Assembly (NCBI GenBank): GCA_001986395.2
Contig: MQVO02000001.1
Coordinates: forward strand, 2,790,001 to 2,854,000
DNA: 64,000 nucleotides
Source of the DNA: Irpex lacteus
Lineage: Eukaryota > Basidiomycota > Agaricomycetes > Polyporales > Irpicaceae
Direction: 5' to 3'
The notes under the pieces are model-generated. The model was not told the origin of the DNA. It worked only from the letters and a program-made list of their open reading frames with translations, and ran no database searches. The translations under genes and the position numbers were made by a program. This document shows positions 10,561 to 37,819 of this stretch, piece by piece (within the stretch, counting starts at the first letter, position 1; each line of letters opens with the position of its first letter).

Positions 10561-10663
10561 TCGCGCCACTCGAGGGAATCACGCAGTGTAACGCCTGTAG
10601 GGTGTTATGTTTTGTAGTCGGGGTCTTTCATATCGTGCATGTTAACTCGCTACTACCTGTATA

Positions 10664-13526: not shown

Positions 13527-13559
13527 GTGTACTGTATGCGTACAACGTAGTCAGCACTT

Positions 13560-14600
13560 TAGTTCATGTTGTCAATCCATACTAGTTGTCGACGTACCGA
13601 CAGTTCTGTGTGGGACTAGTAGTCACCGTAGCTATACTAGACGTAGAGTAAAACCTAGCTTTACCGTCAATTAGTTATGCTTATCTGCGTATTAGTTGTT
13701 ACGATGACTTACCGTTGCTCTATTTCGCACCTTGTACGTTGAAGCGTAGCTGTACCTGCTGACGCCCACGACGCGTGTAACGCATTCATGCGCGACACAA
13801 AATGAATGTCGCGTGTCTGTGACTGTGATGAGTGGCGAGCGTGACATTAGCCGCTTACTCTTATTCACGTCTCGCAAGTTCCCACCGCTGTCACTGTTTC
13901 CACCATCATCGACACCTTCCGTCTACTGCTCAGTCGCTTCGTATGAGGCAATGGTCGTTGGTCCCGAGAATACAGGGCTGGGATTCAGGTGCGTTTTTGG
14001 GCTTTCTCGTGTTTCTTCGCTAATGAACATTCAGGACTTTATCACACTGAGAGCACGGGGCTGTTTGAATGGCCCTGTGTCTTTCAGGGTGCGTAGCTTG
14101 GGCTGGATGTAACGTCCACACCGACACTCGTGGTTTTGATTCACATACGGAGGGTTGGCTGTGTTGGCCAGTGACGCGTCACGCCCAGATGACTTCGTTG
14201 CTGTACCGTAGTGTACCCACCTCCACTCATGTACATACGCTCCTCAGTGCCAATGCGAATTATATGCCTTTAATAGCCTTTCACGTGTGCAGGAACCTCT
14301 GTGTTTAGTCGCAAACGCGTCCAATACGTATCACTCACACTTTTTGTTTATCCCTTGTTGCTTGAAAACTGACGCATCGCATCCCCATCGAGTGACGCGT
14401 TTCGCACGTGGTAACCAAAAAAATGCAGAAGTGGCAATGATGAAGTATCATGTTGGTACCATAGCTTTACATGTGCGCGTTCTATTGAAGCCTGAGCGTG
14501 TCTAACGAGGTACAGATTGCTTTTTCTTCCTGTGCACGCTAGGCCACAGTCTACTTCACAGATGGCCGTCTGTATGACCAGCGAGAATATACCACTAAGA
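13560..14600. other. Helitron interior without a supported gene
   Basis: Only short overlapping frames are present, with no recognisable domain and no consistent splice pattern. It may contain the 3' flank of the F-box-like gene and the 5' flank of the gene at 13526. Confidence 0.45.
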
Positions 14601-14606
14601 CCGTTG

Positions 14607-15862
14607 TCAGCGAGAAACAGTGCGTGTAGCTGAGATGTACTCACCACCCTTGAAACCCTGTTGGTGTAAGTGAGTTCGCGCTGTCGCATACAACCCAACC
14701 TCCCATATGTCCGATTTGCGATGTCTGGCGTAATTCGCTGAAGACCTCTCGTTGGCTGAGAAGCGTAAGGTTAAGACGTGGACGTGGTTCGTCTTCGTTG
14801 CTATTGCTCGCCACATGGCTGGCCATGCGGTCGTGAACCTTGTGTAGCTTGAGACCTCTCGCTTCGGGTAACGTCGAAACGTGTCGATGACTATCACCAA
14901 TTCTCTGACTGACTTGGGTAGAGTTCGAATAGTCTCCGTCGCTTGCTGAATCGTTGCTGTCGCCCAATGCACGGCGCATACACCCAATTGAACAGTGGTG
15001 AGACTACTGCACAGCGATAAATTGACGTGCAAGTTGATATTCTCTCCGGGGTCTACGATGTTCAAACGACGCATCAGTTTCGTCTCGTTCAGTGTCGTCG
15101 CACCGTACCTCTTAGCATATCGCTCAGATGCCATGACAGCTTCACCTGTGATACGGATGAACATGCTTCAATGTTCTTTCGTACGAGCGTCACGGTGTCG
15201 TAGCGTGGCTCTCGCTTGCGTCTTCCATCGGCGTCCTGAGCCCATACAGCGTCGAGAGCGATGTCGCACGTGAAGGAGCGCAAGTTTCGGATCAGCACAG
15301 GTGCTGGTGCTGTAGCTGTCACGCGTTCCGTGCTGAGAACATCTGCCAGACAGAACGTTTTCGTGGTCATCGCGATGCTGAGCAGGATGGCCGGGTCCAC
15401 ATTGCCTTTGACCCGTACGTGTTGTATGACAAGTCGGTCCATATGTCTCGGTGTTGGCGGGAATGCACACTCGTGCGAACTCGAGCATCTCTTCAACGTG
15501 AAGCAAGCGAGGTCCAGCGCACGCACGTTCGGCAATCGTTCGAGAAGGCCATGAAGTGCGCAAGGCGTGATGACCATGCACCTCGGATTCACCCAACGGC
15601 CGTCTGGATCTAATGGCACTAGAGCCAAATGTATGATGTACCTCGTCAGATAGCCCATGTCGTCCAACCGTTGCGCTAAAAGCGGCATTGAATATGTGTC
15701 TCTGTACCCCGTGTCTATGCGTAGGGTGCGGAAAAGAATTGGGAGCGTAGCCTCCCGCATCATTTTGCTGGCCACACTGCATTGCAGTAGTGTATCCAGG
15801 TCGTTCCGGAGGTAGCGCAAGCACGAAGCTACCACGTCGTACGGGATCCCTACTTTGAGGCC
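14607..15862 (-). CDS. F-box-like protein, Helitron cargo, start exon not identified
   Basis: The minus-strand frame opens with IPYDVVASCLRYLRNDLDTL followed by LLQCSVASKMMREATLPILF, which has the pattern of the degenerate F-box seen in many agaricomycete proteins (LP.D....L......L...S..S..., then a hydrophobic end). Downstream are leucine-rich stretches such as LERLPNVRALDLACFTLKR. The first frame ends near 15089 and a second continues from about 15164 to 14607. This requires either a small intron or a frameshift in the 15089-15164 overlap. No in-frame ATG was found before the upstream stop codons, so the start lies in an unseen exon or is lost. The role by family would be substrate-receptor-like; not proven here. 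Confidence 0.5.
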
Positions 15863-16044
15863 ATTTAGTTATCATGGACTATGCGTGGAAGCCGTTGCTC
15901 ACCGTCCCTCGCTTGTGAGGCCATCAGGGTTTGCACGTCGATGTCACAGACAGAGCAGCCGCCGCACGTTGTATAGAAAATATGTTGTAATCTATTACAC
16001 GCGCTAATACCCTACAACCTGTATTCCTATACTCATCACAGTCG

Positions 16045-16224
16045 CTAATACACTACAACCTCTCGCCTGTCGGAAGGGCAATAGTCTGCGCACGGGGGTC
16101 CGCCCAGCTTCCACCTCACATTATCTTCCATCGCCGTAGGTCCATCGAACACAACGGTGGCGCAATCGTTGTCGTTGAACGAACGCCAGCACGCACCGCA
16201 TGCGCGACAAGTGGCACAAGTGCG
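16045..16224 (-). pseudogene. 3' half of nucleotidyltransferase-like gene 1, severed from its 5' half
   Basis: Read on the minus strand from the edge of foldback B, this 180-bp piece continues exactly in frame from the 5' half that ends at 26956 (plus strand). Both pieces carry the 8-bp word CGCACTTG at the element border. The joined tail has the pattern C..CR.CG.CWRSFND.DC, then NVRWKLGG, which aligns with the tails of the two intact paralogues at 33155-33958 (FMCGSAMRWFNDQYC, DLRWQLGG) and 34540-35520 (NVRWRVH). It closes with a TAG at 16045. Nothing else could explain a matching tail 10.7 kb away in opposite orientation except rearrangement. Confidence 0.88.
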
Positions 16225-18921
16225 AGCCGAGGGATAAGTACTGAAGCTTCATACCCACCAGCTAGCCTAAATGATCTGATACTTCAGACCAAGGCTAATT
16301 GCTGGCAGTGAGAGGGAGAGTGATTAGTAAGCATTACAACTGATGTGGCAACGCTTTATTGGGCAGTCCCATCAAAGAGTGACCCAAAGGGGTGGGTAGC
16401 ATGGGCTCCTATTTTATTAAAAGCTGAAAAAGCGGCCACATCAATAAAATAATGATCTCTGACCCATCAAATGACTAATAGACACATGCTTTCGCTTCAG
16501 ATTGCCTAAAAGGGTAATGGAGTGGTCTCACCGCCTTCCTGGGCGCTTGGGCGCTTATTTTGTCGTTTTACTCCTTTAGGATGGTATCACATGACACAAA
16601 CATATGCTGATGTCAGAAATGAAAAGATGTTTTCTGAACCGGATTTTCCCCAGGATTCCGAATCTAATCTCAGAATTTCGATAGCTGCACTAGTCCAGGA
16701 GTTATTTGAGGAACATTGAATATATTTCGCATTTTTGGATTTTCCCAGGCTTTGATCAGCTTGGTATAGGGGTAGCAGTAGGGTTATGGCTTAGTAACTT
16801 CGGGATAATGATTCTATAATATATGGCCTGTGTCTATTAACTTTCTAGGACATCAGGACATCATGTCACTTGGGAAAACATATAAATCAGACATATAATG
16901 TTTTGCTTCCCTATTCATGACAGGGGGTATTATGAGCGGTTTAGGGTCTCGAATGGCTTTATTCATACTACTATGATATGTCTGTAAAGGGGTTTTATGA
17001 TTGCATCAATGTGCACTACTGTGTGAGGGATGTTCTCCTCCTCCCCTTGGTACAAAAAAATGCGCCCTATATAGGACTCTATACACATCTCCTTGCATAT
17101 CTATTGCTTGGAGCATTTACCCTATAGTATGAACATATATTCTGGATACTTTTAAGGCTCAAAAACACGTCCTGAACCTTCTCAGAATGCTTCAAAGCGA
17201 AATTCATCGAAAAATACAATTATATTCAATTTACCCTCTCCTATGAGCCTCCTAACGTGTTTCCCTTCAGGCACAGCACGTCAGGACGTGTCATCGTACT
17301 ATATATACTTCCATAAATATTTGTAAAACGTCTCCTCTACCCCCTACCCTCCCATCAGCTCAGAAATGTTGGAAAATGCGCAAAACACCCAAATCTGACA
17401 TAGACTTGACATGTACTGCCTGCTACATAGCCCATAAATATCACAAAAAGTCATAATAGATACCCATACACTGTCTCTACATGTTCCAGGAAAGATCTTT
17501 CCAGTAGCATGACATGCAGGTATGATATAGAAGGAATACAGCATAAGTGAGAAGTGAGGTCATTGCACTGTACATGCACATACCTTCATCCATGCTTCTT
17601 AGCCTGTTTCCATATAATAGTGTCTCAAGCTATTGCTGAGGAGCCCAAGTATTGTGCTAGATATGTTACAGAACCTTAATACAGTATGATATCATTATTT
17701 GATAGCCCTCATGATGTGTCAGAGGATGTCAAATGTCAAATATATGTTCAAAAGCCTGTACAGAACGCATTTTTCAGCACTTCTGAGCTGATGGGAGAAT
17801 GAGGGGTGGAGGGGACGTCCTACAAATATTTATGGAGGTATATATAGTACGATGACACGTCCTGACGTGCTGTGCCTGAAGGGAAACACGTTAGGAGGCT
17901 CATAGGAGAGGGTAAATTGAATATAATTGTATTTTTCGATGAATTTCGCTTTGAAGCATTCTGAGAAGGTTCAGGACGTGTTTTTGAGCCTTAAAAGTAT
18001 CCAGAATATATGTTCATACTATAGGGTAAATGCTCCAAGCAATAGATATGCAAGGAGATGTGTATAGAGTCCTATATAGGGCGCATTTTTTTGTACCAAG
18101 GGGAGGAGGAGAACATCCCTCACACAGTAGTGCACATTGATGCAATCATAAAACCCCTTTACAGACATATCATAGTAGTATGAATAAAGCCATTCGAGAC
18201 CCTAAACCGCTCATAATACCCCCTGTCATGAATAGGGAAGCAAAACATTATATGTCTGATTTATATGTTTTCCCAAGTGACATGATGTCCTGATGTCCTA
18301 GAAAGTTAATAGACACAGGCCATATATTATAGAATCATTATCCCGAAGTTACTAAGCCATAACCCTACTGCTACCCCTATACCAAGCTGATCAAAGCCTG
18401 GGAAAATCCAAAAATGCGAAATATATTCAATGTTCCTCAAATAACTCCTGGACTAGTGCAGCTATCGAAATTCTGAGATTAGATTCGGAATCCTGGGGAA
18501 AATCCGGTTCAGAAAACATCTTTTCATTTCTGACATCAGCATATGTTTGTGTCATGTGATACCATCCTAAAGGAGTAAAACGACAAAATAAGCGCCCAAG
18601 CGCCCAGGAAGGCGGTGAGACCACTCCATTACCCTTTTAGGCAATCTGAAGCGAAAGCATGTGTCTATTAGTCATTTGATGGGTCAGAGATCATTATTTT
18701 ATTGATGTGGCCGCTTTTTCAGCTTTTAATAAAATAGGAGCCCATGCTACCCACCCCTTTGGGTCACTCTTTGATGGGACTGCCCAATAAAGCGTTGCCA
18801 CATCAGTTGTAATGCTTACTAATCACTCTCCCTCTCACTGCCAGCAATTAGCCTTGGTCTGAAGTATCAGGTCACTAGGCTAGGTACATGGTATGAAGCA
18901 TCAGTACTTGCCCATAAGGTG
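16225..18921. mobile_element. Foldback element B (2697 bp, non-autonomous, 8-bp TSD type)
   Basis: The ends are AGCCGAGGGATAAGTACTG on the left and the inverse of CACCTTATGGGCAAGTACTG on the right; both share AAGTACTG..GCTTCATACC, forming imperfect terminal inverted repeats. Inside, arms of about 1.15 kb (16225-17380 and 17766-18921) are near-perfect inverses around a 385-bp centre. It is the reverse complement of element C over its full length, with only scattered differences. The flanking 8-mers differ: CAAGTGCG on the left, AATAAAGA on the right; each finds its partner beside element C. An 8-bp duplication would suit a hAT-type transposase, but none is encoded here. Confidence 0.93.
17381..17765. 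other. Unique centre of foldback element B
   Basis: This is the non-palindromic spacer of the element. Its orientation is the opposite of the spacer in C, which shows that B and C face each other. The 66-codon open frame at 17344-17544 minus recurs in C and is not considered a gene. Confidence 0.8.
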
Positions 18922-21900
18922 AATAAAGAGACGGTCGTCAGCGATAGTAGCACACGCGAGCGGTCTGCCAGGGTCCTGATGAACAGGATAGTTAATGGTC
19001 TCACTGCTAAGACGGAGATAGGTGGGCCGATGGTCTGCTGTCTATTGCTCGGAAATCCCGAACACTATACTAATCGCCAATTTAAGCCCTTTTTCTGGTA
19101 TTCGTTCGCTTCCTATGTCGCTAAGGCATGGCATGAGGGAGAGGACGACGAAGGAGATGATACGGATGACCTCGTTATCATCAGCAATTCACCTGACGGA
19201 ATGCTTCCCTATGGCAAAGTTTCAGACTATATCTGCCGACCCGAGTCGATGGATTCGTTCTCTTTGACCGACTATCTCATAGCCACAACAATAGTTCCGG
19301 TGCCAAAAGGTAAAAACACCGTCAGCGACGCGTTCGTCTACTCAACCGGTCGTCGTGTAGTTTATAAGTTTACGCCAGACCACCCAAAATTCGCCACCCA
19401 CGGTATACAACTGCTAGAAGAACCCAATCGCTACGTGCTGAACTACCTTGGGGGAGTCTTACCGCGTTTGAACCATGGAGATCAAGAGGTGTATTGTCGC
19501 ACAATGCTTACCTTGTTTCGCCCTTGGCGGACCGGCCGAGAACTTCGCTCCCCAGACATGTCATGGCAGAATGCCTTCGATAGCTGGTCGTTTCTCCCGC
19601 ATCACATTGCAACCATGGAGAATATGAATGTCCTATACGAATGCAAAGATGCGAAGCATGACTTCGCGGCACAACGTCGCTTGCACGCGGATTTGGCCTC
19701 TTTGAGTGGCATCTTCGGAACCTCCCCTGCGTCGGATGGTGAGAAACCCCCAGACGACACCGAAGACTATTCAGACTTAACACAAGCCCAGGTATTGGCC
19801 ATGGTAGACCATGCCCTCGATTCCGATAAATCAATCATTACCAAGGACCGCCTCAACAACCGCATGACTCAACTGGAGGTGCATGTCATGAATGACGAAG
19901 CTGCCCATTTATTTCCTGGCCAAGTCTTTCCCGCGCACGGAAGTATCCCAGGTGCAACGCCTTTCGTGACGTCCAACAAGTCTTCAAACGAGTGGAAAGC
20001 TACCGTCAAACTGGCTAAGGATAAGGTCATTCAACACCGCATGAATGCAGACCTCGATGTGAACCATGTCATAACGGCGGGACAAATACTACCTGCCACG
20101 GGTGTACATAACGACGTTAGACTGTTGACAGCCGAAGACTTAAACGAGAGTCACAGGGTCGGCTCCTCTTTGCAGATGTTGCCCACTAAACCCACCACCG
20201 AAATGGACGGTATCATCGCAAGATTTTCTTTGAACACCAAGCAACGGAAGGCTTTCACATTAATAGCTACGCGAGTAACGCAAAACTCTGCTATACCGCT
20301 TCGAATGTACTTGGGCGGGATGGGCGGTACTGGCAAATCACAAGTGATCAAAGCACTAGTTGCATTCTTCGAGCAGCGTAGAGAAGGTCATCGGTTCAGA
20401 GTGATGGCCCCTACAGGTTCTGCAGCCGCTCAGGTGGATGGGTCTACCTATCACTATCTGTTCGGATTCACTTTGAACGGCAGCGGTATTTCAAAAACAC
20501 GCCTCGCAGCTTTGAGAGACATGCACGCACGAACAGATTTGTTCCTTCTCGACGAGGTCTCTATGATGTCTGTGGCCGACTTTTACAATCTGAGCGAACG
20601 CATGTGTAAAATCTTTGACAGCATGGATTCCTTCGGGGGGAAACATATCGTAGTCTGCGGAGACTTTGCGCAGCTGCCCCCTCCGGGTGAGTTTTCAAAG
20701 CCGTTATACAGTGACGATATCCGCTTGGACGGCTCCAACGCTGCCAACCAAAAATCAGTCATGGGCAAGGCTTTATGGCACTTGTTCACCACGGTAATCT
20801 TTCTGACGGAGAACATGAGGCAACGCGGTATGTCGGAGGAAGATATGCGGTTCAGAACAGCTCTCGAAAACATGAGATATGCTGCATGCACACAAGACGA
20901 CTTGATTTTGCTGCGTAGGCGCATTTCTGGCACCACTCCCGGCAGCCCACATATCGGAGAGGCCAGATTCTGCTGGGTGTCAGTTATAACAGCTAAAAAT
21001 TTGGTGCGAGATGCAAGGGTAGACGTCACTGTTCCCAGATTTGCCAACAGTTTTCATGAAGACCTTCCGATATTTGTATCTGGTGACTCTTGGGCGGAAG
21101 TGAAAGAAACTGGGTCCACTCGACAGACACAAAAGGCGGTGCAGCACGTTTTCGATCCCATTCGGTCCTCTAATGCCTTTGACCAGCGGATACAAGACGT
21201 TCTATGGGAATTGTCACCTCGCCGCACCAACAATGTCCCAGGTTTACTGAGACTATGTAGGGGAATGCCCGTTCTATTGAAGTCGAACGAAGCTACAGAA
21301 CTGTGTGCTACAAATGGCGCTGAGGGCATTGTCGTCGGCTGGGACGCCGTGCCCATTCCTGGTCGCAAAAACTGGTACAAGCTGAACACGTTATTTGTAG
21401 AGCTGGTAAAGCCTCCCAGAACTTTAACCCTGACAGGTTTGCCAACGAACGTTATTCCCATCGTGCCTTCCACTGTGACCTTTACAGTAGACCTCACAGA
21501 GAAACAGCGCATAAGAGTCAAGAGAACTCAGGTTCAGGTTCTGCCCAACTTCGCAATGACGGACTTCGCGAGTCAAGGGCGCACGCGGGTGAATAATGTC
21601 GTAGACCTACGCCACTGCCCAAGTCACATGTCAATGTACACTGCATTGTCTCGGGGGTCGTCCTTTGACGGCACTCTGATTCTGTACCCCTTCGATGAAG
21701 GTCGAATAACCAGAGGAATGAAGAGAGATCTTAGACGCGAATTCCAGGAACTGGAAATGTTGGCTGCTGCCACTGACGCAGAGTTCGACGGAGAACTACC
21801 ATTTTCTACGGTTGGTCAAACTCGTAGTTACGTTATAAAGGAGTACCAAGCGTGGAAAGGCATTCACTACGTACCACCCGGGGTTCACCCAGCGTTGAAC

Positions 21901-22959
21901 TGGGCACGAGAAAATGTGAATTCACTTCAGCCACCACCCGTGCCACCTACATGGAAACCTGTACTCGCGGAGGACGCAAAATCAACAGCTACTGGCAAAA
22001 GAAAGCTGCCATCATCAGCCACTTCTAAAGCAGTGAATAAACGTGCCAAGTTGTCGGGCTCACAGTTGATCAATAGCCCAACGACGCGTGCGCCCAATGC
22101 AATTTTGGGCTTTATATGGGACTCTCGCGACTGGAGCTGTGCGTACGACTCTCTGTTCACTGTGCTGTATAACTTATACAGACAAGAGCGTCTGGTGCTA
22201 TGTGGCTCTACAACCCACGACGTGACCCCTGCACTAGATCGGTTACGCACAGGCTTTGCGCAATTGAAGAGTGGTACAAGCTCAATCACACCCGAGTCGC
22301 TGCGAGACGCTGTTCGCGATCTGCTATATGCAGTCGACCCCCGTGAGCTGGTCAGACACGGCGAGTACCTGACTTCCATCGAGAGACTAGTCGAGTGCCT
22401 GTTTCCTATAACCGTCGCATACGCGAACACTGAGTATGCATGCTGCAATTGTCAAACCACGCGCCACGCTGACCCAGGAAGGTTTCGGTCCTACGTTTTC
22501 ATGGCAACGTCTCATGAATTCCCTCTTGCAAGGTACCCAAACACCTTAACTGTCAAGTACTTGCTACAATGCTTGTTCAGCCGAGTGAGAAACCGCCGTA
22601 ACTGCGCTAACTGTCAAAATGCGTTAATTAAGCGCAACACAATCTTCACTCGCACACCGTCCTTCCTGGCTCTCGAATTGCAAACTACAGACACGGCCAT
22701 GCCGGATGTGAGCGTCGATCTGATGTTCACACTGTCCGAGTACAACGCCGTAGCATGGGCATTAGGAGGTATTCTGTATCTAGGAGGTGGCCACTTCGTG
22801 TGTCGCTACGTCGACAACATGGGAAGGGTTTGGAAACACGACGGCGTTCAGCATGGTAACACACCATTGTATGAAGGCATGGCAACTTTGTTAGACTTGA
22901 CGAGGCTCGATGACAAAAAGGCGTGCATGATCATTTACGTCCCTGTGCCACGTACATAA
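18922..22959 (+). CDS. Helitron RepHel, C-terminal part: linker, Pif1-like helicase and cysteine-protease-like domain
   Basis: The frame opens at the AATAAAGA half-site with ETVVSDSSTRER and an AKTEIGGPMV block, which in intact Helitron proteins follows the Rep tyrosine motif. It then shows Walker A GMGGTGKSQ (about residue 467), Walker B LFLLDEVSMM, CGDFAQLPPP and LTENMRQRG, all Pif1/RecD-like superfamily 1B helicase motifs. After a linker it ends with a domain carrying DWSCAYDSLF (Cys box, about 1071), two CXXC pairs (YACCNC, NCANC) and GGHFVCRYV..WKHDG (His box, about 1291). That layout fits a ubiquitin-hydrolase-type (USP/OTU-like) cysteine protease; assignment by motif only. The gene has no start of its own: the GTG and first codons belong to element B. 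The N-terminal half is at 29654-32658 on the other strand. Confidence 0.93.
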   Translation, partial: NKETVVSDSSTRERSARVLMNRIVNGLTAKTEIGGPMVCCLLLGNPEHYTNRQFKPFFWYSFASYVAKAWHEGEDDEGDDTDDLVIISNSPDGMLPYGKVSDYICRPESMDSFSLTDYLIATTIVPVPKGKNTVSDAFVYSTGRRVVYKFTPDHPKFATHGIQLLEEPNRYVLNYLGGVLPRLNHGDQEVYCRTMLTLFRPWRTGRELRSPDMSWQNAFDSWSFLPHHIATMENMNVLYECKDAKHDFAAQRRLHADLASLSGIFGTSPASDGEKPPDDTEDYSDLTQAQVLAMVDHALDSDKSIITKDRLNNRMTQLEVHVMNDEAAHLFPGQVFPAHGSIPGATPFVTSNKSSNEWKATVKLAKDKVIQHRMNADLDVNHVITAGQILPATGVHNDVRLLTAEDLNESHRVGSSLQMLPTKPTTEMDGIIARFSLNTKQRKAFTLIATRVTQNSAIPLRMYLGGMGGTGKSQVIKALVAFFEQRREGHRFRVMAPTGSAAAQVDGSTYHYLFGFTLNGSGISKTRLAALRDMHARTDLFLLDEVSMMSVADFYNLSERMCKIFDSMDSFGGKHIVVCGDFAQLPPPGEFSKPLYSDDIRLDGSNAANQKSVMGKALWHLFTTVIFLTENMRQRGMSEEDMRFRTALENMRYAACTQDDLILLRRRISGTTPGSPHIGEARFCWVSVITAKNLVRDARVDVTVPRFANSFHEDLPIFVSGDSWAEVKETGSTRQTQKAVQHVFDPIRSSNAFDQRIQDVLWELSPRRTNNVPGLLRLCRGMPVLLKSNEATELCATNGAEGIVVGWDAVPIPGRKNWYKLNTLFVELVKPPRTLTLTGLPTNVIPIVPSTVTFTVDLTEKQRIRVKRTQVQVLPNFAMTDFASQGRTRVNNVVDLRHCPSHMSMYTALSRGSSFDGTLILYPFDEGRITRGMKRDLRREFQELEMLAAATDAEFDGELPFSTVGQTRSYVIKEYQAWKGIHYVPPGVHPALNWARENVNSLQPPPVPPTWKPVLAEDAKSTATGKRKLPSSATSKAVNKRAKLSGSQLINSPTTRAPNAILGFIWDSRDWSCAYDSLFTVLYNLYRQERLVLCGSTTHDVTPALDRLRTGFAQLKSGTSSITPESLRDAVRDLLYAVDPRELVRHGEYLTSIERLVECLFPITVAYANTEYACCNCQTTRHADPGRFRSYVFMATSHEFPLARYPNTLTVKYLLQCLFSRVRNRRNCANCQNALIKRNTIFTRTPSFLALELQTTDTAMPDVSVDLMFTLSEYNAVAWALGGILYLGGGHFVCRYVDNMGRVWKHDGVQHGNTPLYEGMATLLDLTRLDDKKACMIIYVPVPRT

Positions 22960-22984
22960 CAGTCTGACACGTCTCGCTAACATT

Positions 22985-23950
22985 TCACTCCTCACCCACG
23001 TACGCCCTAGTACGACTGACGACGACAACACCTTCTTCCCCGTCTCTCCCGGCCTTGGCACGGCCCGTTTTAGCTACAACGTTGGTAGTGGACTCCTTCA
23101 AGCGCACAATCTCTATGGGCCTGAAAGACACGTACACCTCCCGCTGGTTATAGTCGCGTTTGTGCGCAATGTCAACGACAGCGACGACGTTGACAAAGTC
23201 GCCGACCTGTATAACCAACGGCGACACGGCCTTGAGTTGACCTGCCTCTTGCACACGGACGGGTATCGGTGCGCTCAACTTCCACTGATCACGACAGTTC
23301 ATGGCATCATAGCCACGACGGTCCGTGAAGTCTATGACGTGTTTTTGGTCTTCGTCTTTGCCGACCTAACAGTAGAGGCCTTCTTCAGTATTGGACACAG
23401 TGGAGAACGAGAGCACTCACTTTTTTAAACACTCGCTTATAGAACTCGATCTGGCTCCCTTTCTTACCGGAGTACTTGTTCCCCAAAGCGATAGTCACAA
23501 AGCGTCTGATGTTGTCGGCTTGGCGAGCTTGTTCATCAAAAATAGCTTGCAACGGCCCACCGTGTAGTGTGATACCTTGAACGGCACTTACACAAGAACC
23601 AAGGTTGCTGACAAGACCCCGTCAGTCGCGCCTGATATCATGAAGGAATACGACCCACCCGTTCCAGTTACCATACGCTGTCAGGCCGCGCTTCTTGACA
23701 AAGCCCTGGAAGGACAACGACACTTCGTGGATCTTGAAGTGGTCATCTGACCGGTACGCGAGGTATCGATCGCGCTTCGGATCCGGATAGTCAGGATCGC
23801 GGTCGACGAAGCACCAGTCGGGATATGCATCGAGGGACACAGGAACAGGAGATAGCGTATGCCCTTCATGCCCTGGGTTCTCCTTTACATGAACAGGGAG
23901 GCCCCACTGCGAGCTAAGGCGAGTAACACCGTCTACTTAAACGGTTAGAA
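22985..23950 (-). CDS. Unknown spliced gene, copy 1 (OB-fold-like C-terminus?), Helitron cargo
   Basis: Minus-strand exons are visible: about 23950-23625 (WGLPVHVKENPG..., FVDRDPDYPDPKRDRYLAYR), a middle exon about 23590-23420, and a last exon ending at 22985. The intron before the last exon has GTGAGTG and TTAG ends (about 23420-23370). The last exon carries VIQVGDFVNVVAVVDIAHKR, then YVSFRPIEIVRL, which matches the corresponding LQVNDTVMVEMAFRRE...LELVRVVVL in the gene at 24308-25836. The two are therefore paralogues lying head to head. The short beta-rich tail could be an OB fold of the kind in single-strand DNA-binding accessory proteins, but this is speculation. The start codon was not identified. 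Confidence 0.5.
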
Positions 23951-24307
23951 CTGTGTAAACAACGGCAGTTACGGCCTGGATGGCCTACCTTGGGCGAGAA
24001 AGAGGGACATAGGAGCGAAGCGACCCTTTACCGCCCAAGCCTAACGAAGCTTCGACAGACTTTATGTCGTTTCACTGGAATGACAGATTAGCCGTCGACA
24101 TTTGTGCGAGCCCTCTCAGATTGGTCGCTCACATGGTACTCAAAGCCCATGGACGCTGGGATTACACAGACGCCAATAAACTAAAATTTATTCGACGCTC
24201 GCCTCAACAGATAACCCTACGCAGACATTCTATGTCAAGGGCGTAGACCGATAAGTATTGGCCCCCCACCTCCCTTCACCCCCCTTCACCCCCCTTCCCC
24301 CACCATC

Positions 24308-25836
24308 ATGGCATTCACTCGTGCTACCAAGCACGCTCACGAATCCTCCGATACGGACGAGGACCGTCATGCAAAGGAGGATAAATCTCCTTCCAAGAAA
24401 CAAAAGTGAGTGTAAGCAGTATGGCGTTCGACGGGTCTTTAACATTCCTCTACGGTAGAACGTCGGTGCGGTCAGCGCACACCCGGGCTAGCGCAGCGAG
24501 CGACAGCGAACCTCTCACCCCTCCACCTTCGTCGCCCATCCAACCGTCATCTCCCATCCAACCACCTTCGACCCACCAGCCGTCGTCCCCGCCTGAAGTT
24601 GACACCCTGACCGCTTCGCCCGTGCTAGTCCAGACAGATTTGCGAGGCAACCTCCCCTCTCAGTCTGTCATGCACGGGCCGTCGACGGCCGCACCAGGAG
24701 TAGGCTCCGCGACTGCGGGGGACGTCGACACTACAGTACATCGGCAGTCTTCAGTTACCACCATGGTTAGCCCTGCCCCCCTCAAACTCCCCGACGCCGT
24801 TGCAGATAGCCCCATCGTTGCAAGGGATGACCAGCAAGGGCCCCAGCCTTCCACACCGCAGGTCGCAGACACTGGAGCTACAAACACCCCTGAGCCCCCC
24901 AGCGCCAACACGAACGGTACCGTGGTGTCAGCCGCCGACGTCGATTTGGAGCCTGTAAGTGTGACCACCGTTTCCTTGAACAGTCGCTCATGACCACACA
25001 GATCTCCGAGAGGACCAGGGATTATTTCACGGAGCCTCTCATCACTCGAATGAACAAAATGCTGCACTTCAGCGATTCCACAAGCCATATCTACGGTCTG
25101 CACGTTCTGCCCACTCAGTCCCTGGGATGGGGCACCATCCGCCGCGGTGGGCGCAACACGGAGAATCTGTGTATCGGAACTGTCACCGTCACGGTGTGGG
25201 TCATCGCGGAAGTGACGTATTGGCGCTACCTCAAAATCGACGAGAACAAGGTCGTCCAAGGCAACCATCGCAGGCCTTCCCTGGGCCTGCACATCTTTTC
25301 GGACGGCGAGTTCGAGAAGTTGAAAAGGGTTATGTTCGACAACTCCCCCGTCAAGAAATGTGCGTACATTGTGACTTCGCCAGCATAAGATTTCTGACAC
25401 ACACCAGGTCGGGACGTCGTCGAGGGCGATCGAATCGTTTACGTGAAGAAATGGATGGCCCAACCCTCAGTCCCCGCAGACAAGGTTCGTCGGGGCATAT
25501 CTACCTTCAGTTTCGAACGGCATTCACGAACTCCACTCTTAGATTAAGCAGTTCAGCCAAGTTTACGACGGGTCGCTGTCGTGGTCCGGGCCAGAGGAGG
25601 ACAAGCGGATCCCGCCGTCTCGCCTTCAAGTCAACGACACCGTTATGGTGGAGATGGCGTTCAGACGAGAGTTCGAGAGAATCCCGCCACCGTCCGGTTC
25701 GCCCCGGGGCACACAAGGCTCGACGAACTACAACAGCTGGACGCCTGAGCTGGAATTGGTGAGGGTGGTCGTCTTGCAGTCTGCCCCAAAAACGAGCGCA
25801 GAGGACAAAGTTGCGTCTTCCGCTTACAATTTTTAG
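24308..25836 (+). CDS. Unknown spliced gene, copy 2, Helitron cargo
   Basis: The ATG at 24308 opens a short basic, acidic-patch exon ending in KSPSKKQK (possible nuclear signal) before a GTGAGTG donor at 24406. Exon 2 (from 24459) is a Ser/Thr/Pro-rich linker. Further exons encode TRDYFTEPLITRMNKML, YGLHVLPTQSLGWGTIRRGG and a C-terminal LQVNDTVMVEM...ELVRVVVL segment, closing with TAG at 25836. About four introns with consensus ends can be traced (for example GTAAGTGTGA at about 24956). It is paralogous to the minus-strand gene at 22985-23950 and lies about 350 bp from it, head to head. No enzyme motif was seen. Before the proposed inversion it would have run on the main Helitron strand. Confidence 0.55.
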
Positions 25837-25839
25837 TTT

Positions 25840-26247
25840 TACCACAGTAGAGTCTCGAACAGTCTTGGGCTTGTCAAATAGAAAATTTACATTGCATTCT
25901 TAAAATTTGCCACCTGTCTTTATCGTGCAATAAAAGATCCATATGCGTTTTGTACAATTTTACCGTTTCAAGCGCAAAGCGGAGGGAGAGTTGAAAAGCG
26001 CTTGAAGAACAACTTAACCAACTTAGGCAACTGTTCGATTGGTGGCGTGGAATCTCCGACGTTGCGATCGGTCCGCGGCTTGCCTAGATCTGGAGGTTCG
26101 CTTGCAATACAACGGATGCCCGATTACGGATGGAACGGATGAATGAATGGCAATCGCATGTGCCATGGCCGAGCTGCAATAGGAACATAAAAGGCGCACT
26201 TGGCGAGCAACGTCTCTGCCGTGGAAAGAGTCCATCGCTGAACGACC
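25840..26247. other. Spacer between two Helitron cargo genes
   Basis: No gene is supported. It is the likely 3' region of the unknown gene ending at 25836 and the promoter of the nucleotidyltransferase-like gene starting at 26248. Confidence 0.5.
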
Positions 26248-26956
26248 ATGCCTGCCACTACGTAAGTCAGCCCACAAGCATGAGTGTCGTAAAGTAGCTG
26301 ACTATCGCGTTTAGCCTGCCCGCCACGGACGTTGCAGACCTGTTGTCACTGGCATCTGTAGAGACTCTATGCGTTTGGCGTAGATCTAGCGATCTGGCTG
26401 CAAACGTAGCGGCAACGGAGATACAGGCGCGCATAAACCGAGAACTGGCTTGCAATTTTCGTTTCCCCGAAGCTCTCATTCGGGCGATGAAGTCTTTCAA
26501 CGCCGTACTATGCGGGGACTTCGTCCTGAGCATCCTCGAACCAAAAGAAAGGTATGCAAGGGTAGACTTCATCGCACCGAAGGGCACCTTCTGGCGCTTC
26601 ATCGAGTTCCTGGAGGATAGCGAGGACGTTGAGTACTTAGGAATCGTGCGAGTGCTCAGCACGATGCACCAGGAGGGGTACAAGCATGTCATGGATTTTC
26701 GTTGTCCCGAGCAAGACGGCCAACCAGGCACCACCGTCCGCATCATTCGGTCTACCGCCCCCTCCCCTCTCCATTCCGTCCCCTATTTCTTTTCGACCCA
26801 CCTCATGAATGTTATTACACACGATCGCCTTATCGTCCCCTACCCTGCTTTAACGTTCGCTCGCACCGGCGTAGAGGTAGATCCATCAGGCAGCCTGGAA
26901 CACCCCTCATCGTTCACCCTGGGGGACCTGGACAGAATCCTACCCAACCGCACTTG
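26248..26956 (+). pseudogene. 5' half of nucleotidyltransferase-like gene 1, cut by foldback C
   Basis: The ATG at 26248 starts a five-codon exon, followed by an intron with GTAAGTC donor and TTTAG acceptor (about 26262-26313). The main exon reads ATDVADLLSLASVETL, then SFNAVLCGDFVLSILEP, ARVDFIAP, and PYFFSTHLMNVITHDRLIV followed by PYPALTF. In agaricomycetes this series (GxxxL..L, DxDxY-like position, STxxMNxIxxDxxxxxYPxLTxxR) recurs in proteins with a nucleotidyltransferase-like fold. The metal-binding Asp pair is poorly kept, so catalysis is doubtful. The frame runs into element C after the 8-mer CGCACTTG. The rest of the gene is at 16045-16224 minus. Confidence 0.85.
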
Positions 26957-29653
26957 CACCTTATGGGCAAGTACTGATGCTTCATACCATGTACCTAGCC
27001 TAGTGACCTGATACTTCAGACCAAGGCTAATTGCTGGCAGTGAGAGGGAGAGTGATTAGTAAGCATTACAACTGATGTGGCAACGCTTTATTGGGCAGTC
27101 CCATCAAAGAGTGACCCAAAGGGGTGGGTAGCATGGGCTCCTATTTTATTAAAAGCTGAAAAAGCGGCCACATCAATAAAATAATGATCTCTGACCCATC
27201 AAATGACTAATAGACACATGCTTTCGCTTCAGATTGCCTAAAAGGGTAATGGAGTGGTCTCACCGCCTTCCTGGGCGCTTGGGCGCTTATTTTGTCGTTT
27301 TACTCCTTTAGGATGGTATCACATGACACAAACATATGCTGATGTCAGAAATGAAAAGATGTTTTCTGAACCGGATTTTCCCCAGGATTCCGAATCTAAT
27401 CTCAGAATTTCGATAGCTGCACTAGTCCAGGAGTTATTTGAGGAACATTGAATATATTTCGCATTTTTGGATTTTCCCAGGCTTTGATCAGCTTGGTATA
27501 GGGGTAGCAGTAGGGTTATGGCTTAGTAACTTCGGGATAATGATTCTATAATATATGGCCTGTGTCTATTAACTTTCTAGGACATCAGGACATCATGTCA
27601 CTTGGGAAAACATATAAATCAGACATATAATGTTTTGCTTCCCTATTCATGACAGGGGGTATTATGAGCGGTTTAGGGTCTCGAATGGCTTTATTCATAC
27701 TACTATGATATGTCTGTAAAGGGGTTTTATGATTGCATCAATGTGCACTACTGTGTGAGGGATGTTCTCCTCCTCCCCTTGGTACAAAAAAATGCGCCCT
27801 ATATAGGACTCTATACACATCTCCTTGCATATCTATTGCTTGGAGCATTTACCCTATAGTATGAACATATATTCTGGATACTTTTAAGGCTCAAAAGCAC
27901 GTCCTGAACCTTCTCAGAATGCTTCAAAGCGAAATTCATCGAAAAATACAATTATATTCAATTTACCCTCTCCTATGAGCCTCCTAACGTGTTTCCCTTC
28001 AGGCACAGCACGTCAGGACGTGTCATCGTACTATATATACCTCCATAAATATTTGTAGGACGTCCCCTCCACCCCTCATTCTCCCATCAGCTCAGAAGTG
28101 CTGAAAAATGCGTTCTGTACAGGCTTTTGAACATATATTTGACATTTGACATCCTCTGACACATCATGAGGGCTATCAAATAATGATATCATACTGTATT
28201 AAGGTTCTGTAACATATCTAGCACAATACTTGGGCTCCTCAGCAATAGCTTGAGACACTATTATATGGAAACAGGCTAAGAAGCATGGATGAAGGTATGT
28301 GCATGTACAGTGCAATGACCTCACTTCTCACTTATGCTGTATTCCTTCTATATCATACCTGCATGTCATGCTACTGGAAAGATCTTTCCTGGAACATGTA
28401 GAGACAGTGTATGGGTATCTATTATGACTTTTTGTGATATTTATGGGCTATGTAGCAGGCAGTACATGTCAAGTCTATGTCAGATTTGGGTGTTTTGCGC
28501 ATTTTCCAACATTTCTGAGCTGATGGGAGGGTAGGGGGTAGAGGAGACGTTTTACAAATATTTATGGAAGTATATATAGTACGATGACACGTCCTGACGT
28601 GCTGTGCCTGAAGGGAAACACGTTAGGAGGCTCATAGGAGAGGGTAAATTGAATATAATTGTATTTTTCGATGAATTTCGCTTTGAAGCATTCTGAGAAG
28701 GTTCAGGACGTGTTTTTGAGCCTTAAAAGTATCCAGAATATATGTTCATACTATAGGGTAAATGCTCCAAGCAATAGATATGCAAGGAGATGTGTATAGA
28801 GTCCTATATAGGGCGCATTTTTTTGTACCAAGGGGAGGAGGAGAACATCCCTCACACAGTAGTGCACATTGATGCAATCATAAAACCCCTTTACAGACAT
28901 ATCATAGTAGTATGAATAAAGCCATTCGAGACCCTAAACCGCTCATAATACCCCCTGTCATGAATAGGGAAGCAAAACATTATATGTCTGATTTATATGT
29001 TTTCCCAAGTGACATGATGTCCTGATGTCCTAGAAAGTTAATAGACACAGGCCATATATTATAGAATCATTATCCCGAAGTTACTAAGCCATAACCCTAC
29101 TGCTACCCCTATACCAAGCTGATCAAAGCCTGGGAAAATCCAAAAATGCGAAATATATTCAATGTTCCTCAAATAACTCCTGGACTAGTGCAGCTATCGA
29201 AATTCTGAGATTAGATTCGGAATCCTGGGGAAAATCCGGTTCAGAAAACATCTTTTCATTTCTGACATCAGCATATGTTTGTGTCATGTGATACCATCCT
29301 AAAGGAGTAAAACGACAAAATAAGCGCCCAAGCGCCCAGGAAGGCGGTGAGACCACTCCATTACCCTTTTAGGCAATCTGAAGCGAAAGCATGTGTCTAT
29401 TAGTCATTTGATGGGTCAGAGATCATTATTTTATTGATGTGGCCGCTTTTTCAGCTTTTAATAAAATAGGAGCCCATGCTACCCACCCCTTTGGGTCACT
29501 CTTTGATGGGACTGCCCAATAAAGCGTTGCCACATCAGTTGTAATGCTTACTAATCACTCTCCCTCTCACTGCCAGCAATTAGCCTTGGTCTGAAGTATC
29601 AGATCATTTAGGCTAGCTGGTGGGTATGAAGCTTCAGTACTTATCCCTCGGCT
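26957..29653. mobile_element. Foldback element C (2697 bp, inverted copy of B)
   Basis: It starts CACCTTATGGGCAAGTACTG and ends with the inverse of AGCCGAGGGATAAGTACTG. It has exactly the same length as B and is its reverse complement with only scattered changes (for example an A/G difference near 27895). The outer 8-mers are CGCACTTG on the left and CCTTTATT (inverse of AATAAAGG) on the right. Neither matches the other, but CGCACTTG matches the left border of B, and AATAAAGG matches the right border of B in 7 of 8 bases. Confidence 0.93.
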
Positions 29654-32600
29654 CCTTTATTTGCAAGAACCATGCGCACGGCCTCAAAAATGGAGTGGGT
29701 TTTCAGCGATGATTTCGTGATGTAGTCCGTCACGTAGGCTATTACAGCGCGAACCATGGTTCCTGATAAAAGACAGGTGACGTCTGTATTACAGCGCAGT
29801 AAGTAGGAGAGGGTGGGAGAGAAGGTGTTGATCCACGCCTCTTTCTTCATCAAAGTCAATGCCCCTGTCTCTGCATCAACCTGTGTCTCTGATTGTATCG
29901 GCCTTGGGTACCGAGCGCGACATTCAGGTCGGGACAGCGTACGACATCCCCTATTGTGCGCAGGAGAGTGATAGTTCGAGCGGAACACAATTTCATCGCT
30001 GACATGCAACATATGATTGTACCATGAGGACAACTTCGTGTCATCTATGAAGACCTCTGGCGGGGGTGCACGGGGCATACGCGCGGTGGGGTCTCCCGGC
30101 TGGATGTGTTCTGTGTCAAGCAGAGGGTCGCTGGGGTCGTTTTCGGTGATGTGAGTACACCCGTACTTAGACCGCAAACGTTTCTGAACGTCGTCCATTG
30201 AACCAGTACTGAACTGACCTTGGTGACAACTCTCCAGCCACGTCACGAGAGAATTGCGAAATGTGCTGTCCTCTAGTTTGAGAGCATCACGAATCTTTTG
30301 TGGGGAGTATGATCCTTTAATCCAAACCAACAGGTGAAGATGCAAAGCCAAACGACCTTGCTCTTCGACAGTCCCATAATAGGCAGAAGTCTCTCCGAAA
30401 AGGCCGGCTTCCTCAGAATCGACACGCAAGACAATTTTAAGGAAGGCCTGGACGAGGACGTGAAAAAAGCGAGCGCAAGCTACGGGATTTTGATTTACAG
30501 TAACGAGGCGGTGCTGGTAATCAGGAAGGCGGAGTGCAATGTCGTCAAGGTCGACTGGTTCACCACAGAAATAGAGGCAAATAGGATTCTTGTTTGGGGG
30601 TGGTGCGAAAGTTATGAAGAACACAGGCACACCTTCGGACACTATGAGTGAACGGATTTCGTTCCGTTGGTACTTGCGTTGCGTAGCAGAGCCGTCGACG
30701 TGACCCGAAACTGACTCAATATATGTAAGAAGCTTGTAGCACGACTCCTCTGCATCTGTTTCAGGCTTTACAAAGCCATCACGTTGTGCGCGACGAACTA
30801 GTTCGGAGAGAGCATCAACATCGACGTTGTGTATACGGTCGACAACGTCCTCAAAATTACGCCTCTTTGTAAGCAGATATCCACCAAGGGCGCTCTGGCG
30901 TATTTGATCTTGATTGAACGCGATGAAGGGAAAGTATGGATCCACCTGAAAGCGTTTGTCACCATACATCAGCAGTGATTGCACGTGTGTGGCCAGGGGA
31001 ATAGTTTTGGTGATGCGCGTGTTCGCGAACCCGCCGAATCCGTAAGGAAACAGCCAAGGGAAGAGACCAGGAAATAAAGAAGGGTTGTTGTACACTGACT
31101 GTGGATTGGTATCACGACCTACAGCCAAAATGTTTCCACCAGATTTAATGTGATGCAAAGCTTTCGCGGCCTGCTCTCTTCGGCCCATAGAAACCAGGTC
31201 GTCTTCGGTCACTCCATGCACTGACACAGGGCAAACACCCGCAGTAGTACCCGTCTCTGTAGCGCGGTCGTGGACAGACAACGTTTCTAGGGGATCAGTG
31301 TCTGGGGTTGGTTGGTGAAAGAACGAAACAGGCAAGGAGGTCTCTGAATAACTCTCGAGATTGGACCTCGATAGCTGCACGTCAGCGTATTCGAGGTTAT
31401 TCGTCTTCAACCATAGCAGAGCGCGCCATATATAATTACGACGTACAAGAAAAGGCGTACGCTTGAAGTCCTCGATGGTGGGGGCTATGGAACCAGTGAA
31501 GAGGACTGCGATGATTCCTTCTAGTTCATCTCGATGCATGGGAAGCACTGCGAGCAACTGAGCTACAGGCTGTGCGAACACGATGCAATTAGCACGCATT
31601 TTATACGGGCCTTTGTGAACCCTCAGAATGCAACAGTTGTGGCGGTAGCGGGCAATGAGAACCTTTTCCATAAAATTGAGATCGCTCAGAACGGAAGGAA
31701 CCTCCCCAACCCAGCGGCCATTTGCTAAGGCAAGGGTGGGCAAAGAGTTACGCTTCAAAGACGTCATGCAAGTAGGGCACACAGAAATCTGGCCCTCGTC
31801 AGAGGCGGTGGACGGGTATAGAACAGGGCCAGGCAGGGTAGTTACTGGTTCCAAAGGAGAAGCTCTTTCATGCCTGGTGACACCAGGGACATGCAACACG
31901 TTTAGCAGCGAACAGCCTGCATCTACAGCCGACAAATTTTCCTGTGGAGTTAAGGTACCACAAACATTGCATGGCGCTTCCAGTAACACGAAGCTGGAGA
32001 CGGCGGACGACCAGTCACGTACAATACCTGCCACGTCACCGACAGATAACGGAGGGGGAGGAAACGGTGGACAAACATTTGACGGCGGTACAAACTGCAG
32101 AGGCCCAGTTTGAGTAGGAACAGTAGGGGTGCGGTCTCGCATGACAGGAGGAGCGTGGGACGAAGCGGGCAATGCAACAGTCGGGGCGAAAGTGATTCGA
32201 AAGGGGTTCACTTCGCTGTGGAGAGGTCGTGAAAAGCAAGCATAGACTAAGCAACACTGAGCTTGCGGCATGTTGCAGGCGCAGCGAGTGCGGATAGCAA
32301 TGCGAAAGTCCTCAGCACGTAAGTTTCTGATTTTAATGTTTAGCATGGGTTTAAATAGCTTGGCAGACGGAAGCCCGACATAGTCGGCAACGACATGGAG
32401 GGGTAGCTTTACGCATACACAATCTGGCGCAGGCTGTGGGGCAGACGCAGAAATTCCGGTCAACTTCAGCAGGTCAGCGTCGTAAAGATTTACGAAGTCG
32501 CCGAAGACGATAGGATAGACACGGAGGGTAGTCACGGGAATGCGACTTGTATACGGAGCACCGCCCAACAGTTGTGGGCGAACAAAAGGTATACGTAGGA

Positions 32601-32658
32601 CATCTGACACCGAAGGAGTGCTACGGACATGTAGTCGGCTCCATAGCCAAAGAAGCAC
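29641..32658 (-). CDS. Helitron RepHel, N-terminal part: DUF6570-like region and HUH Rep domain
   Basis: The minus-strand frame includes a Cys-rich region (CNVCGTLTPQENL...CPTCMTSLKRNSLP...LANGRWVGEVP), the pattern of DUF6570 found at the N-terminus of Helitron proteins. It then has FFITFAPPP, the HUH box HLHLLVW (about residue 771) and the YVTDYITK motif with both candidate catalytic tyrosines (about residue 975). These are the marks of the Helitron rolling-circle replication initiator, which nicks and joins DNA strands. The frame leaves real Helitron sequence at 29654 and stops four codons later inside element C (TAA at 29641). The continuation, helicase and protease-like part, is at 18922-22959 on the plus strand. 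The start is uncertain: upstream frames to about 33047 may hold a further exon. Confidence 0.93.
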   Translation of the reverse strand: MLLWLWSRLHVRSTPSVSDVLRIPFVRPQLLGGAPYTSRIPVTTLRVYPIVFGDFVNLYDADLLKLTGISASAPQPAPDCVCVKLPLHVVADYVGLPSAKLFKPMLNIKIRNLRAEDFRIAIRTRCACNMPQAQCCLVYACFSRPLHSEVNPFRITFAPTVALPASSHAPPVMRDRTPTVPTQTGPLQFVPPSNVCPPFPPPPLSVGDVAGIVRDWSSAVSSFVLLEAPCNVCGTLTPQENLSAVDAGCSLLNVLHVPGVTRHERASPLEPVTTLPGPVLYPSTASDEGQISVCPTCMTSLKRNSLPTLALANGRWVGEVPSVLSDLNFMEKVLIARYRHNCCILRVHKGPYKMRANCIVFAQPVAQLLAVLPMHRDELEGIIAVLFTGSIAPTIEDFKRTPFLVRRNYIWRALLWLKTNNLEYADVQLSRSNLESYSETSLPVSFFHQPTPDTDPLETLSVHDRATETGTTAGVCPVSVHGVTEDDLVSMGRREQAAKALHHIKSGGNILAVGRDTNPQSVYNNPSLFPGLFPWLFPYGFGGFANTRITKTIPLATHVQSLLMYGDKRFQVDPYFPFIAFNQDQIRQSALGGYLLTKRRNFEDVVDRIHNVDVDALSELVRRAQRDGFVKPETDAEESCYKLLTYIESVSGHVDGSATQRKYQRNEIRSLIVSEGVPVFFITFAPPPNKNPICLYFCGEPVDLDDIALRLPDYQHRLVTVNQNPVACARFFHVLVQAFLKIVLRVDSEEAGLFGETSAYYGTVEEQGRLALHLHLLVWIKGSYSPQKIRDALKLEDSTFRNSLVTWLESCHQGQFSTGSMDDVQKRLRSKYGCTHITENDPSDPLLDTEHIQPGDPTARMPRAPPPEVFIDDTKLSSWYNHMLHVSDEIVFRSNYHSPAHNRGCRTLSRPECRARYPRPIQSETQVDAETGALTLMKKEAWINTFSPTLSYLLRCNTDVTCLLSGTMVRAVIAYVTDYITKSSLKTHSIFEAVRMVLANKGAEG

Positions 32659-35520: not shown

Positions 35521-36257
35521 TTCTCCGGGAGCAACGACAGCCGGGTGAGATAAGTCTTTGAATGATGAAAAGAAATGTATTTAATTAGAGGTGCAGATGT
35601 ACATAACATGATGACGTGGAGCCGACGCCGAAGACATTATACGCAGAGAGGCGGAGGTGGAGGTGAGAAGGTGTACATTGCCTCTTATGGCAATGGGCAA
35701 GACAAGCGCTGGCGCGTGAGAAGAACAGACGTACAATGTGTCTGGACGAGTGAAAGGAGGTAGGGGAGGGAATGAATAATACGGCGATACAGCTCGAGAG
35801 ATGAGGTAGCAATTAGGAGCTCAGGAGTCGCAACTTAACGTGTACAGGCCCAGAGGGCTATTGTCGCAACGGACCATAAAGCGGGGTGGAAAGAAAGCGT
35901 GAAGTGCGGATGCCTGTAGAAGCCCCATAGACGCGCGTAGTGAAGTCGAAATTATGTAGATGGTAACCTAACTACGCTAAGTTTAATAAGCGCGACGTAA
36001 AGGGGTAGGAAAAAGGCGTGAGCTGGAAAAAGAAACGATGAAGAGGGAGAAGTTAGCGATGTATGCGCGTCGGCAAGTGAAGGAGCAACGGACGTGCAGC
36101 GTGCACTCCAGCTTGATCAGTACATGCGGAAATGACATGAAATAATATTTGAGAAGATCATTTCTTGCTACAGGCGTATACAAGCCTCTGTGAACGCATC
36201 CATGTGACGTGCAATGTCCAAGGCGCGACAATGTGACGATGCAAACCGGATGTTGAG
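35521..36257. other. Helitron 5' region without a supported gene
   Basis: No open frame with recognisable features was found. It separates the minus-strand cargo genes from a plus-strand gene starting near 36366 and may hold divergent promoters. Confidence 0.45.
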
Positions 36258-36365
36258 ATGACGCTCAAGTGGTTGCCTAATGCGGTAAGTCAGGGTACTC
36301 AACGCTCTCACCCAGACCAACCACCCTCCACCACACAACCCCTCTCCACCACAACTAGTGCATCT

Positions 36366-37560
36366 ATGACAGAACCAACCACTGTGGACAGTCAGTTTGA
36401 GCAATTGGTTGCGCTTGCCAAAGAAATTGTGGCTATAGGAACGGCTCTACGCGACGATGACACGGTTGGGCACGTTCGACGCGGTAACGGACGAGGCATG
36501 CTGCATAAGGACCCAATCATGATCAGGAGGCACGTTGTGAAGCTCATACAGTCGGGGCAGAGGCTATTGGACGGATTGGACGAAGAAAAAGGTGGTCTTG
36601 GGCATGAACGCTTCGAGGTGGTCGCAGCAACCCGTGCGAAGTGCGTAAACGTCGTCGATTCGTTTGCGGTCGTCACTAACAACCGATATGCGCGTACCAT
36701 TGCAAAGGTTTCGCGAAATCTTTGAACAAGTCGTCAACGTTGAAACTGGGACGTCAATCGTGGGTGGACCACGGTGCCAGGAAGTCGCACAGGCGTCAGG
36801 GGAAGGCTACACGGACAGGTGCGTACAAGACGTCTTCATGCTATGTGAAGTTCTATTAACAAATGCGAACGTTAACTACCTACATGGCACTGTGTTGCAT
36901 AGTATGTTGAAGCGTGGGGTAATGGCGTGCGAGGGAGAGGCGAACGCAAGCCGAAACGGCCACGCAGACGGGTAAGTGTTGATCGTCACATGCATTTAAT
37001 CGCACACTGTACAAATGTATGGCCTGGTTATGATTAGTGGACGCATGAGAGAGGCGCAAGATCTTGACGAGGGGTCAGGCACACCCCGCACTGCAGATCC
37101 GACGAAAACGATCTCGGAGGAGAGGACCGATCAGCGTAGCACACACGGTCGGAGGAAGCCGAGGTAAGTGTAATCACTGTTGGAAGTTAAAAATCTAATC
37201 AACACTGCCGGGGACGTTCCAGAAAACGAAGGACGTATGCGTACAGCATACCCACGGAGCGCATCAAAGGGGACCCCAGCTATGCAACACCACCGGAAGA
37301 CCATGTAGGAGGCCCTCGTGAAATAACCGGACGTCGAAGGCCTTCGTTCACCCCCGGCCCGTCAGAGGATGGCGCGCAGCCATGGGCTCGTCGAGCGTTG
37401 AAGGCCACGGTCTATCGTGTGCAAGGCGTAATGAGGATCAGGCGAGGAGAAGCGTTTACAGGGAATGCACAGGGGTGACTCAAGTCACGTGGAAACTGTG
37501 TCAAACGTTGCTCGCGATGGCTGTCTATAGAGGCTCTCAGCAAGTACATCTGTTAAATAG
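36366..37560 (+). CDS. Unknown spliced gene near the Helitron 5' end
   Basis: The ATG at 36366 opens an exon with helical, acidic sequence (MTEPTTVDSQFEQLVALAKE). A second frame, 36690-36974, encodes FREIFEQVVNVETG and YTDRCVQDVFMLCEVLLTN before a GTAAGTG donor at about 36974. A third exon (about 37040-37165) ends at another GTAAGTG, and a further exon follows a CAG acceptor near 37222. The splice signals support a genuine transcript, but the exact join near 36690 and the 3' end are unresolved. No domain was recognised. It is the only cargo gene outside the inverted segment that runs against the Rep strand. Confidence 0.4.
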
Positions 37561-37819
37561 GCCGACATAAATGATAATAAGATGGCATGGGAAAGAATTG
37601 CCGGGCTGAGGAAGAAGTCGACAGCGGAAAAGACTGCACGCAGGCGAAGTACGGTGAAAAATAGACGCCCGTGCGCCACAGCGCACGGTAAGGCAAAAGA
37701 GCGCATCAAAAGGCGTGGGTGACGGAGAGAGCGGACCGGACGGGGAGGAGCGGGACGTCGGTGAAACCGCGGGTGAAACGACATCACGTGATGAGTGGGC
37801 GAGCACAGACCGAGTAAAA

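Follow-up and report, generated by a model that had tools for sequence, protein, structure and literature searches.

A segment of 8 kb (positions 18922-26956, minus strand) lies inverted within one Helitron of Irpex lacteus relative to both other copies of that Helitron, and it is bounded on both sides by the inner edges of two foldback elements, B and C, whose target duplications are swapped. The reading that we favour, and hold to be probable as a whole, is that crossing-over between the two inverted copies made the inversion, that the inverted order is real in the strain, and that the foldback family is one mobilised by a KDZ transposase. The flip is a well-documented rearrangement of the known Galileo-like type, with a probable KDZ foldback as its substrate. 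The whole stretch of DNA that was analysed (the window, 64,000 nucleotides, whose own coordinates are used unless a contig is named) sits on a 3.25-Mb contig (C58), and the assembly searched comprises 44.3 Mb in 317 contigs.

Swapped duplications and the un-inverted copies of the host Helitron

Element B (16224-18921, plus strand; ends GAGC...GGTG) and element C (26957-29654, minus strand) are 2698 bp each and form an inverted pair that differs at a single base and by no gaps. Each is nearly palindromic, with arms of about 1145 bp that are 98% alike and enclose a 385-nt spacer, and there is no long frame in either. B and C have no closer relatives than one another, the nearest further copies in the assembly being only 95% alike. 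The flanks of B do not match one another and neither do those of C, yet between the two elements the exchange is perfect: B reads CAAGTGC-element-AATAAAG, and C, in the direction of B, reads AATAAAG-element-CAAGTGC (7/7 and 7/7). In coordinates, the duplication of target site 1 stands to the left of B (16217-16223, plus strand) and, swapped, to the left of C as GCACTTG (26950-26956, minus strand); that of target site 2 stands swapped to the right of B (18922-18928, plus strand) and to the right of C as CTTTATT (29655-29661, minus strand). Among the 7-mers of the window on both strands the two flank 7-mers make up shares of 6.3e-5 and 1.3e-4, and the product puts the chance of both matches at pre-set places at about 8e-9. 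The joints of the inverted segment show no gain or loss other than the 7 bp. An earlier note on this DNA had described the same swap with duplications of 8 bp; the swap stands, while the length does not, and the 7/8 match of that count arose because the base counted eighth at the GAGC end belongs to the element, as its first G.

B and C lie in a Helitron (10516-37841, minus strand) that measures about 21.9 kb without them. Two other long copies are present (C147:23148-58679 and C58:2681105-2703412), and the ends are common to short derivatives (L034, L038, L040). Both long copies have the un-inverted order, lack B and C and hold each target once. In the C147 copy, which is 87-96% like the window by segment, the empty sites read CACGTGC (C147:28854-28860) and, in the direction of B, AATAAGG; the C58 copy is 66-91% like the window, with RepHel near 73%. 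Because two un-inverted copies have both sites empty, the order in the window is the derived one. We considered whether the C147 copy might be an allele of the window locus and rejected this, as the likeness begins and ends at the Helitron ends (window positions 10514 and 37841). Judged by such borders, the C147 and C58 copies are paralogues of a mobile element. So the un-inverted arrangement that the earlier note wished to see sought has been found, though not as an allele, and within the same assembly no copy of this Helitron was found with B and C present in un-inverted order.

Turning 18922-26956 back restores colinearity with the C147 copy, just as had been claimed, and it does so through two broken genes. 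A single uninterrupted RepHel frame of 2395 amino acids in C147 spans both pieces in the window, neither with gaps: the N-terminal piece (29655-32658, minus strand; DUF6570, PF20209, and Helitron_like_N, PF14214) corresponds to residues 52-1052 at 94.6% identity, and the C-terminal piece (18922-22959, plus strand; PIF1 helicase, PF05970) to residues 1051-2395 at 97.6%. It is thus by way of the C147 frame that the Rep and helicase domains (PF14214, PF05970) fall in one protein. Similarly, a frame of 276 amino acids in C147 runs across the joint of the two pieces of gene 1 (N-terminal, 26250-26956, plus strand, no Pfam match; C-terminal, 16045-16223, minus strand). RepHel is cut by C in either orientation and, being interrupted by C itself, would not be made intact by the un-inverted order alone. 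The best 120 of 179 RepHel relatives (7986 candidates scored) include named ones that are all from mushroom-forming fungi at 30-39% identity, among them Hermanssonia, Grifola, Phlebia, Meripilus, Trametes, Peniophora and Panaeolus. For gene 1 only two relatives were found. Its description as nucleotidyltransferase-like, made in the earlier note, is without Pfam support: neither the C147 protein (E ≤0.01) nor the window frame at 26343-27011 (E ≤0.1) gave a match, which leaves that function neither supported nor excluded.

Helitrons insert without a target duplication and have a 5' TC end and a 3' CTRR end. Where the present one entered its own host (element A, see below) there is at most one shared base, and the 5' end is TC in the direction of RepHel; at the 3' end there is no CTRR. 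Further frames within 10516-37841 are conserved in C147 (871, 260, 276, 201, 276 and 340 amino acids there) and have no Pfam match. The outer parts of the Helitron (10514-16224 and 35808-37841) are 87-88% like C147 and the middle 94-96%, a contrast that may possibly reflect a mosaic. A short stretch at 59364-59401 resembles the Helitron 3' end, the remainder being absent.

The foldback family and its candidate transposase

Outside the window there are at least 16 foldback copies with matches no shorter than 2.3 kb (scoring covered the best candidates), and all 16 were examined. The family ends GAGC...GGTG and has a duplication of 7 bp. In an end scan a perfect 7-bp repeat adjoined such ends in 13 of the 16, and L055 and L056 have one too once CAAC is accepted in place of CACC at the end, which brings the total to 15; in L051, the sole long outside copy without a readable duplication, one end was not located. 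A duplication of 8 bp was rejected, since the eighth base differs in L004, L005, L006 and L007 whereas all 15 two-ended copies agree over 7 bp. The earlier statement that no element has matching flanks therefore describes A, B and C in the window but not the family, in which 15 of the 16 long outside copies match. The genome has many copies whose duplications can be read, which allows a direct count of how often flanks are mismatched or swapped and spacers flipped.

Of the 17 two-ended copies, which are B, C and 15 others, 10 have the spacer in one direction and 7 in the other, and three close pairs, in which each copy has its own perfect duplication, have the interior flipped relative to one another (L055/L056, L049/L050, L007/L054). 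L055 (C308:1057079-1060259) and L056 (C32:458905-462085), whose duplications are different, disagree at 296 of 2688 positions when aligned unaltered; with block 401-2781 of one flipped, 17 differences remain and they are 99.4% alike; a symmetric flip gives 99.4% as well but with 106 gap positions, and these gaps are gone with the block derived from the alignment. On flipping the interior, identity rises from 88.1 to 96.1% for L049/L050 and from 87.0 to 92.4% for L007/L054. In a control set of four pairs whose spacers point the same way (B/L003, B/L004, L005/L057, L007/L049), flipping the interior reduces identity. Such a pattern is expected if inverted arms cross over with each other; it shows that arms recombine in this family, not that B and C did so with one another.

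As to what moves these elements, the C147 Helitron copy carries, where the window is empty, an insert of 13.5 kb (C147:30870-44393) that starts GAGC, ends CATAAGGTG and is flanked by a 7-bp duplication, CCAACTC. It codes for a transposase domain of the KDZ family (PF18758, E 2.5e-30), present in one of 10 proteins scanned. The same insert (L012, L044, L045, L010) has inverted repeats of about 770 bp. Its ends, GAGC on one side and CACCTTATGG on the other, are common to B, C, L003 and L004, and the duplication length is the same; no further likeness was found between the B family and the insert. For the KDZ (Kyakuja-Dileera-Zisupton) transposons of fungi, the accessible part of PMC12730594 gives a 7-bp duplication for Kyakuja of Laccaria bicolor and 8 bp for Zisupton, and reports the Kyakuja termini as CA..TG. 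The foldback duplication fits the former figure. Unlike the KDZ transposons described there, however, B-type elements encode no transposase themselves, have long palindromic arms and end CACC...GCTC, which does not agree with CA..TG. The 13.5-kb insert is a possible autonomous partner of the foldbacks, and on the strength of shared ends and duplication length we think that the family is probably moved by a KDZ (Kyakuja-like) transposase and that KDZ parentage of B and its relatives is likely.

Proposed crossing-over between B and C, and its rivals

In the course of events that we propose, a palindromic DNA transposon that was probably mobilised by a KDZ (Kyakuja-like) transposase would have entered one 22-kb Helitron copy twice, the two near-identical insertions lying 8 kb apart in opposite orientation, at site 1 within gene 1 and site 2 within RepHel, each insertion making its 7-bp duplication. 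A crossover between the aligned inverted copies would then have turned the intervening segment round, exchanged one duplication per pair and left RepHel and gene 1 each with its two pieces on opposite strands; the exchange point could lie anywhere within B and C. That two parents should have been identical is plausible, as near-identical separate insertions are found in the genome: L005 and L006 differ by no substitution and one gap, L052 and L053 by nothing at all, and both pairs have different duplications.

This course of events closely resembles the Galileo inversions of Drosophila buzzatii (2z3, also 2j and 2q7), as they are presented in the accessible part of PMC2775673. In both, long-armed copies in opposite orientation occupy both breakpoints, 7-bp duplications are exchanged, the non-inverted order (here that of the paralogues) has single target copies, and spacer direction varies among copies of the family. 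They differ in that Galileo belongs to the P superfamily and lives in Drosophila, whereas the foldback family has a likely KDZ transposase and a fungal host; that a Galileo inversion involves a chromosome arm, and that of B and C 8 kb inside one mobile element; and, most relevant to the argument, that Galileo copies are chimeric while B and C are identical save for one base. In the Galileo case it was the chimeric copies that separated crossing-over from hybrid-element insertion (PMC2775673). With one difference in 2698 positions, B and C leave nothing traceable of this kind at the breakpoints.

Hybrid-element insertion hence deserves to be weighed. It would start from a single parental element that was replicated, the left end of one sister and the right end of the other being treated by the transposase as a single element and inserted 8 kb away, and it would leave an inverted segment between two identical copies in opposite orientation with the same exchanged duplications, that is, nearly the outcome of crossing-over but with copies that are identical rather than chimeric (PMC2775673). 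The single difference between B and C, and the distance to their next relatives, agree with this. Identity is, however, also expected of recent ordinary transposition, as the pairs L005/L006 and L052/L053 attest, and because such substitution-free separate insertions occur in this genome the identity of B and C argues only weakly for a hybrid element. As this route also requires a rarer transposition event and no further sign of it was found, we regard it as unlikely. It does bear on the claim of the earlier note that the swap proves an inversion between two copies: that the ancestral order was inverted is upheld by the two un-inverted Helitron copies with empty sites, but 'prove' goes too far for recombination, given that B and C are all but identical and that the hybrid element predicts the same swap.

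The same note had counted four independent signs. All four result from a single flip, and a misassembly would display them just as well: if the living strain had the un-inverted order with matching duplications, an assembler that crossed the 2.7-kb inverted repeats wrongly would have produced what we see, and inverted repeats of 2698 bp with one difference are a classic cause of such errors. On the other hand, the contig is 3.25 Mb long, there is no N in the window and many long repeats have been crossed, and this continuity suggests that the reads were probably long enough for a 2.7-kb repeat and its flanks. To our minds an assembly flip is accordingly quite improbable. Least credible of all is coincidence, with B and C as separate insertions and the gene halves stemming from different Helitron copies. 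Several Helitron copies do exist in the genome, but the pieces in the window make up one Helitron in which every segment occurs once and the joints are exact down to the duplication, both 7-mer matches would have to be due to a chance of the order given above, and the C147 and C58 copies already contradict it; we can hardly credit it. Thus homologous crossing-over remains most likely the cause, and the inverted order most likely real rather than a flip in assembly.

Swapped duplications together with empty un-inverted copies are evidence of the quality that showed Galileo to make inversions in Drosophila. The case of B and C seemingly extends this to another transposon superfamily and probably to another kingdom, which suggests a tendency common to long-armed palindromic elements of unrelated origin. 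The titles and abstracts searched announce neither a fungal inversion with exchanged duplications nor a fungal foldback; most subscription papers fall outside that scope, so absence is not shown. Fungal Helitrons with captured genes have been described (PMC4289320), with a RepHel that combines Helitron_like_N and PIF1 and with extra conserved frames, as here; unlike those set out in the accessible part of that paper, the present Helitron does no more than house the rearrangement.

Element A, nesting and the order of events

The region 2442-39466 is a nest of four layers, in which an LTR retroelement holds foldback A, A holds the Helitron, and the Helitron holds foldbacks B and C. The retroelement (2442-39466, plus strand) has LTRs at 2442-2904 and 39004-39466 with one difference in 463 positions, the duplication CTGAG on both sides and RVT_1 in 2976-8192. 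Another copy of this retroelement family likewise contains a foldback (L049, C308:2388351-2391064). The nesting gives the order of arrival: the retroelement came first, A entered the retroelement and the Helitron entered A. B and C came into the Helitron once it had split from the C147 copy, either before or after its arrival in A. A single difference between the two points to a recent event, provided that they were not homogenised by exchange afterwards.

Element A is split by the Helitron into a first part with the left end CACC (8085-10515) and a second part with the right end GGTG (37842-38084). Both of its ends are thus of the CACC type, and its flanks, AGCGAAG and GCCGTGG, do not match. 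In two relatives of the retroelement (C58:244599-255546 and C308:2380203-2401454) the places that border A are 4.18 kb apart, of which the window keeps about 0.1 kb, and a short look at the C58 relative shows the reverse transcriptase frame continuing where A begins. A deletion between two foldback insertions would perhaps explain both the two like ends of A and the loss of about 4 kb, although other deletions may also fit, and it is possible that the A locus is a second REARRANGEMENT. One may tentatively, and with more doubt than conviction, go further: since each element is itself palindromic, two copies would be homologous whichever way they point, and either an inversion or a deletion could follow. 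The window would then have an example of both, the inversion at B and C and the deletion at A, besides the spacers that flip within single copies; KDZ-type foldbacks would be a general engine of rearrangement in this lineage, with the segment between B and C perhaps still switching to and fro in living mycelium.

Elsewhere in the window, 46533-48356 and 61323-63161 are related by two diverged inverted matches of 73% and 67% identity over 370 and 449 aligned positions.
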